A DNA stretch of 64,000 nt from contig VGMN01000002.1 of the NCBI GenBank assembly GCA_016866355.1, positions 62,001 to 126,000 of the forward strand, written 5' to 3'. Under the pieces are notes generated by a model. It had not been told where the DNA came from and did no database searches. It saw only the letters and a program-made list of their open reading frames with translations. Shown here piece after piece: positions 48,696 to 53,961 of the stretch. The DNA comes from Bacteroidota bacterium (GTDB taxonomy: Bacteria > Bacteroidota > Bacteroidia > Chitinophagales > Chitinophagaceae). Within the stretch, counting starts at the first letter, position 1, and each line of letters opens with the position of its first letter. Made by a program: the position numbers and the translations under genes.

Positions 48696-48877
48696 CACTC
48701 CCGTTCAAAAAACGGGTAGGCTGGTAACGGCCGAAGATCTTTGAAAGTTGGGAAACAATAGCACTCATTCTCGCTTCACGCGAGAGTGAAATAAAAGGTA
48801 AGTCAAACGAAAACAATTCGATTTGACACGTTAATTTTCTCTTGAGAATTTTAAAATGTCAGTATCAAACATCATTT

Positions 48878-50408
<1,531 letters not shown>

Positions 50409-50501
50409 TTAGAGTGTTTACTTACCTGCTATTGTTTCCTTTTCTTTCATTGTTTTAGTTCTTTGTATCGGAAACCCGTAACACGGGGGCTACATACAAA
50501 T

Positions 50502-50576
50502 AGATCCGTAGCTCAGCCTGGTTAGAGCACTACACTGATAATGTAGGGGTCAGCAGTTCAAATCTGCTCGGGTCTA
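50502..50576 (+). tRNA. tRNA-Ile (GAT)
   Basis: AGATCCG...CGGGTCT acceptor; anticodon loop CTGATAA; T-arm CAGTTCAAATCTG. Confidence 0.95.
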
Positions 50577-50666
50577 CTTAAGGACGAACTCGGTTGGTCG
50601 CTGGTTCCCTGGTCATGTAAAGCCATGCCTGAACTACCAACAGAACTACCAACCCATAATAAAATC

Positions 50667-50740
50667 GGGGGATTAGCTCAGTTGGCTAGAGCATTAGCTT
50701 TGCAAGCTAAGGGTCATCGGTTCGACTCCGATATCCTCCA
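50667..50740 (+). tRNA. tRNA-Ala (TGC)
   Basis: GGGGGAT...ATCCTCC acceptor; anticodon loop TTTGCAA; T-arm ATCGGTTCGACTCCGAT. Confidence 0.96.
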
Positions 50741-50749
50741 CAGATCTTT

Positions 50750-50798
50750 AGATGTGATTCATTATGGTGAATCATCTGGTTCAAGTCCAGCACATCTG
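50750..50798 (+). other. tRNA-like mini-structure (acceptor stem plus T-arm) in the 16S-23S spacer
   Basis: AGATGTG/CACATCT 7-bp stem, CTGG-TTCAAGT-CCAG T-arm abutting the 3' acceptor strand, central ATTCA/TGAAT hairpin. Confidence 0.6.
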
Positions 50799-50967
50799 CT
50801 TGTTCGCCATTGGCGAATCAGCTCTTTGACATATTGGAAAATAAATGTTAGACGAGTATCTAACAATTCGATCATTATTTTGACAATCACACCATTTTTT
50901 TGGTTGGTCTGAAGAAATGTGGTCGGGTAACAACTACAAGAATAACAAATTCTAGTTTTTAATTTTT

Positions 50968-53762
<2,795 letters not shown>

Positions 53763-53849
53763 TTTTTTCTTTTTATAAAGAAAAACCAGGTACTCGCTAA
53801 CATTTTCCAATATGTTAATCTTATTGCTGCAGCAATGCAGTTAAGATCT

Positions 53850-53961
<112 letters not shown>

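Follow-up and report, generated by a model that had tools for sequence, protein, structure and literature searches.

The rRNA operon spacer of this Chitinophagaceae genome contains a tRNA-like element at positions 50750-50798 (+ strand) of the window, i.e., the whole 64,000-nt stretch of DNA analyzed. The element combines a 7-bp acceptor-like stem with a hairpin and a T-arm, and its shape is kept across relatives while its sequence changes, a comparative pattern indicating that it is selected. We tentatively propose that it serves as a tRNA-mimicking signal for pre-rRNA processing, cleaved by RNase P.

A tRNA-like element upstream of the 23S rRNA gene

The window holds one rrn operon, with 16S at 48878-50408, tRNA-Ile at 50502-50577, tRNA-Ala at 50667-50741, 23S at 50967-53763, and 5S at 53850-53961, and a 221-nt query covering the element and spacer has a single match in the 1.76-Mb genome. 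The parts of the element and its flanking motifs are as follows.

50667-50741, +: tRNA-Ala(TGC), upstream neighbor of the element
50742-50749, +: AGATCTTT, the window form of the AGTTCTT motif lying just 5' of most elements (sequence, relatives)
50750-50798, +: whole tRNA-like element
50750-50756, +: P1, 5' strand of the acceptor-like stem, AGATGTG (sequence, predicted fold, covariation)
50757-50772, +: P2, D-arm-like hairpin, ATTCA-TTATGG-TGAAT (covariation, hand-collected elements)
50766-50767, +: invariant GG of the P2 loop (hand-collected elements)
50776-50790, +: P3, T-arm, CTGG-TTCAAGT-CCAG (sequence, covariation, hand-collected elements)
50780-50786, +: canonical T-loop of P3 (sequence)
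50791-50797, +: P1, 3' strand, CACATCT (sequence, covariation)
50798-50799, +: G-C, positioned like discriminator 73 and C74 (R-C in 36 of 39 elements)
50803-50817, +: small hairpin TTCGCC-ATT-GGCGAA between the element and boxA, a boxB-like position (predicted fold)
50820-50831, +: boxA-like AGCTCTTTGACA before 23S (sequence; conserved in relatives)
50829-50841, +: 5' strand of the 23S leader-trailer stem, ACATATTGGAAAA; the complement, TTTTCCAATATGT, is located at 53803-53815

The preliminary description had placed a 7-bp acceptor-like stem and a T-arm at 50750-50798, and both the sequence and the coordinates are exact. The T-stem comprises 4 bp, and CAT lies between the P2 hairpin and the T-arm. 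The minimum-energy fold has the same topology, with the seventh acceptor base common to P1 and the P2 hairpin. An anticodon arm with a 7-nt loop is absent from the window element and the Chitinophagaceae elements; ARAGORN called no tRNA for the window element, and no Rfam family reached its gathering score when the window sequence, rather than subtype B (see below), was scanned. The folding energy is only moderately better than that of shuffled sequences (z = -2.6 for 94 nt with flanks, z = -1.5 for the element alone), and comparison with relatives therefore had to decide.

Compensatory changes and constant features

Across 11 aligned sequences, 96% of cells pair and two-sided changes occur at 11 of the 16 pairs. 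With 24 distinct sequences, the corresponding values are 95% and 13 of 16, and 67 cells carry two-sided changes versus 20.7 in shuffles, all on alignments that were fitted to the model and are thereby biased in its favor. None of 500 shuffles reached the covariation score of these 24 sequences, and pairing drops to 29-43% in slid controls. Two-sided substitutions are present in P1, P2, and P3, and the compensatory changes in the 7-bp stem and T-stem that the preliminary description proposed to look for in relatives' spacers are thus present. The P2 hairpin and the T-stem swap wholesale yet keep pairing, as in the hairpin variants ATTCA/TGAAT, TTTTG/CAAAA, ATTAA/TTAAT, and AACAG/CTGTT. An alternative GAT/ATC extension, suggested earlier to compete with the acceptor stem, is not kept in the relatives' sequences.

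Beyond pairing, several features are nearly constant. The central hairpin carries GG in all 39 hand-collected distinct elements, the TC of the T-loop is among their conserved features, and R-C follows the T-loop at a distance of 11 nt (31 elements) or 12 nt (5 elements) in 36 of the 39, whose ends were chosen with the R-C pattern in view. Subtype B, which has many members, carries non-canonical T-loops, TTCRTAA and TTCGCAA among them. A tRNA docks its D-loop GG onto T-loop positions 55-56, and its T-loop lies 12 bp from the acceptor end, which is followed by R73-C74. Because the GG, the distance ruler, and the R-C end come close to this geometry, the central hairpin is best read as a D-arm. 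The earlier view of one short hairpin and no D-arm needs correcting, as that hairpin is itself D-arm-like.

Distribution in Chitinophagaceae

Four congeners (G003, G009, G022, and G001) have the spacer element at the same place, and a pattern scan of genomes also located it in Terrimonas ginsenosidimutans, T. ferruginea, UBA4411, and RBC053. With a first covariance model, built from five sequences and searched in 399 genomes of the order, all matches of at least 40 bits fell in rrn spacers of several genera, and one 30-bit match lay in a 16S leader (L028); among the matches inspected at or below 27 bits, none had rrn context. A second model, searched over 399 genomes of the family, added further spacer copies, 16S-leader copies in five genomes (G141, G574, G625, G681, and G479), and one copy (L060) ahead of an unlinked 23S gene that is preceded by promoter-like sequence. 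Many of its matches between 27 and 36 bits are rrn leader or spacer copies; two others in this range, L061 and L032, are not and were rejected. The leader of G286, read as an unlinked 23S, also contains the element. In Chitinophagaceae, the element thus lies between tRNA-Ala and a boxA-like site before 23S, and some genomes also carry it in the 16S leader or ahead of an unlinked 23S gene.

At L060 (1400-1730) and L085, 23S is apparently unlinked from 16S, with promoter-like TACCTTTG upstream, and both leaders retain AGTTCTT, the element, and boxA.

As a guard against model bias, contiguous Chitinophagaceae genomes, excluding three already known as carriers, were read across the starts of both rRNA genes, 23S and 16S. 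Nine of the 12 readable pre-23S regions conformed to the strict descriptor, and one more (G326) contained the element with a longer hairpin; G214 was ambiguous, and G364 lacked the element in this region. The element was present in three of 11 readable 16S leaders (G350, G326, and G082), and the 16S leader of the window itself does not contain it. Descriptors tuned on sequences already seen matched 33 of 40 pre-23S regions (0.3 expected from shuffles) and 17 of 36 pre-16S regions (0.65 expected), sets that include model-selected loci. Together with the covariation, this descriptor test rules out a chance hairpin.

Related forms in other Bacteroidota families and possible origin

A further covariance model (R3), searched over 396 genomes of the class, matched only Chitinophagaceae apart from one genome, G705, whose match (L070) had no rRNA context in the stretch inspected and is probably due to chance. 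A tRNA-like descriptor, likewise tuned on sequences already seen, matched 19 of 120 spacers outside Chitinophagaceae, where shuffles predict 3.15. On inspection, about 15 of the 19, in roughly ten families, are convincing. Six of these loci (L134, L141, L144, L179, L260, and L125) have no anticodon arm, and five (L142, L152 with a 5-nt loop, L266 with a 3-nt loop, L167, and L273) are cloverleaf-like without a usable anticodon. At L144 and L125, the element is kept although ARAGORN finds neither tRNA-Ile nor tRNA-Ala. None of the 13 16S leaders inspected from families with such forms outside Chitinophagaceae, two of them short, contained the element. The homology of the Chitinophagaceae elements to these forms rests on position and shape, not on sequence.

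At L142 (G775), a third spacer tRNA-like gene is reported as tRNA-??? by ARAGORN, and its anticodon arm consists of an 8-bp stem with a GAAA loop. The descriptor matches L250, L267, L242, and possibly L177 were set aside as they look like chance or degenerate tRNA-Ala; degenerate tRNA-Ala-like sequences occur in the rrn spacers of two other Bacteroidota families at L242 and L267.

The cloverleaf-like versions at the same site in other families make descent from a third spacer tRNA plausible. The simplest reading is that a spacer tRNA-like gene lost decoding, was kept, and was then copied into leaders within Chitinophagaceae, although several spacer tRNAs may have decayed independently. The preliminary description had offered a fossil of a third spacer tRNA as one explanation; its tRNA origin agrees with the cloverleaf-like relatives, but inert decay is unlikely. 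A decaying, non-functional fossil might account for the gradation seen in other families, whose forms range from cloverleaf-like to armless, and for the degenerate second tRNA-Ala-like copy between tRNA-Ala and the element in Terrimonas ginsenosidimutans (L012:2557-2640). Nevertheless, we regard it as very improbable, given the strong compensatory change, the near-constant ruler and 3' end, and the copies that sit in 16S leaders or ahead of unlinked 23S genes without spacer tRNAs.

Proposed role in pre-rRNA processing and alternatives

In our proposed model, the element would be a cis element of the rRNA precursor, shaped as a tRNA minus its anticodon arm, in which the acceptor-like stem stacks on the T-arm and the GG of the D-like hairpin could dock onto the T-loop. 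Its probable ancestor is a third spacer tRNA that gave up decoding and retained the parts read by tRNA-processing enzymes. In the nascent pre-rRNA, it would most likely provide tRNA-style punctuation. RNase P, possibly together with a 3' processing enzyme, would recognize the elbow, measure 11-12 bp as far as the P1 end, and cleave at that point, so that the boxA/stalk region is detached from the RNA preceding it. Model substrates of the acceptor/T-stem-loop type are known to be cut by RNase P, which is believed to gauge a distance of 12 bp from the T-loop, and R-C pairs with the P15 loop (PMC11143913). The RNase P RNA of this genome is type A. The RNase P reading is preferred since the features kept, namely the T-stem and loop, the fixed distance, and R-C, are those that RNase P reads: the element has a T-loop, a stack of about 12 bp, and an R-C 3' end at 11-12 nt in 36 of 39 cases. 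The shared location in spacers and in the leaders of 16S and of unlinked 23S also speaks for processing, as do the covariation in all three helices, the series of relatives from cloverleaf-like to armless, and the excess of descriptor matches over shuffles. However, CCA is not fully encoded, the stack usually has 11 bp instead of 12, the T-loops of subtype B (TTCRTAA) depart from the canonical form, and the flanking AGTTCTT and boxA fit antitermination equally. Many 16S leaders have no element, and it is therefore not essential there. A broader version of the proposal, in which a spacer-tRNA-derived, anticodon-less mimic, present also in 16S and unlinked 23S leaders, is an RNase P-dependent punctuation and assembly signal of pre-rRNA in part of Bacteroidota, and so a tRNA gene converted to rRNA processing, appears rather doubtful to us.

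The main rival of the processing signal is a role in boxA antitermination, which we consider unlikely on balance. The element would then be a structural accessory to an rrn nut-like site, acting with AGTTCTT and boxA in antitermination or co-transcriptional rRNA folding, and its tRNA-like shape would be a compact fold or protein platform. E. coli has boxB-boxA-boxC both in the leader and in the spacer before 23S, and its boxB is unexplained (PMC10250234). The element lies in the corresponding region, 5' of boxA in some leaders as well as before 23S, unlinked 23S included, and has AGTTCTT directly 5' of most copies. However, the window already has a separate small hairpin between the element and boxA, many leaders and most spacers of the class have boxA without the element, as do most leaders examined without model bias, and this role leaves the tRNA-like ruler and R-C end unexplained. 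A mimic that binds a tRNA-handling protein (a modification or CCA enzyme, EF-Tu, or similar), coupling rRNA output or assembly to that pool, could explain the conserved elbow-like GG and T-loop. It seems improbable, as no alternative terminator-type fold was noted and the 3' end lies within the transcript if no processing occurs. An alanine minihelix charged by AlaRS was rejected, the window having A-U in place of a G3:U70-like pair, although some relatives have G-U.

Comparison with known systems

The tRNA-like domain of tmRNA, which also has no anticodon, the TYMV 3' end, and MALAT1 mascRNA are examples of the tRNA fold as a processing signal or mimic outside decoding. In contrast to these, the element resides in another transcript, has no tag frame, and is fixed in position relative to boxA and the rRNA stalks. 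The Euglena chloroplast rrn leader contains a pseudo-tRNA, likewise a tRNA-like sequence in an rrn leader, in a different lineage. With tRNA (Rfam RF00005), the element shares the 7-bp acceptor-like stem, a T-arm with a canonical T-loop in the window, a D-like arm with GG, the near-12-bp stack, and the R-C 3' end, but it differs in having no anticodon arm, a 4-bp T-stem plus mismatch, and no ARAGORN or Rfam call. The recognition parts and ruler are common to the RNase P minihelix substrates (PMC11143913), whereas the element is natural, lies in pre-rRNA, and has an extra D-like hairpin, its cleavage being our proposal. Like E. coli boxB (PMC10250234), it is a structured RNA upstream of boxA in the 16S leader and pre-23S spacer. 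However, boxB is one small hairpin, and the element has three tRNA-like helices 5' of a separate small hairpin. In some genomes, the element is upstream of boxA at both sites; in the window, the separate hairpin is nearer boxA.

A literature search on tRNA-like elements in rrn leaders and spacers returned nothing matching among the titles and abstracts listed, and the element appears undescribed in the sources searched, although rRNA spacers and leaders rank among the most-sequenced non-coding DNA. The element would be a natural example of a tRNA stripped of decoding and retained as a processing or antitermination signal. Both pre-rRNA cutting in Bacteroidota and the retention of structured RNA upstream of boxA become testable, and the 49-nt consensus is a possible seed for an RNA family.

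Repeated motifs in the operon

The boxA-like motif (A)GTTCTTT/GATCTTT recurs in the window at 50464-50472 (before tRNA-Ile), 50742-50749 (before the element), and 50820-50831 (before 23S), with a further copy in the 16S leader near 48733, and relatives have AGTTCTT at the same places. Two repeats, one inverted (GGTTGGT ... ACCAACC) and one direct (GAACTACCAAC), lie in the interval between tRNA-Ile and tRNA-Ala (50590-50660).
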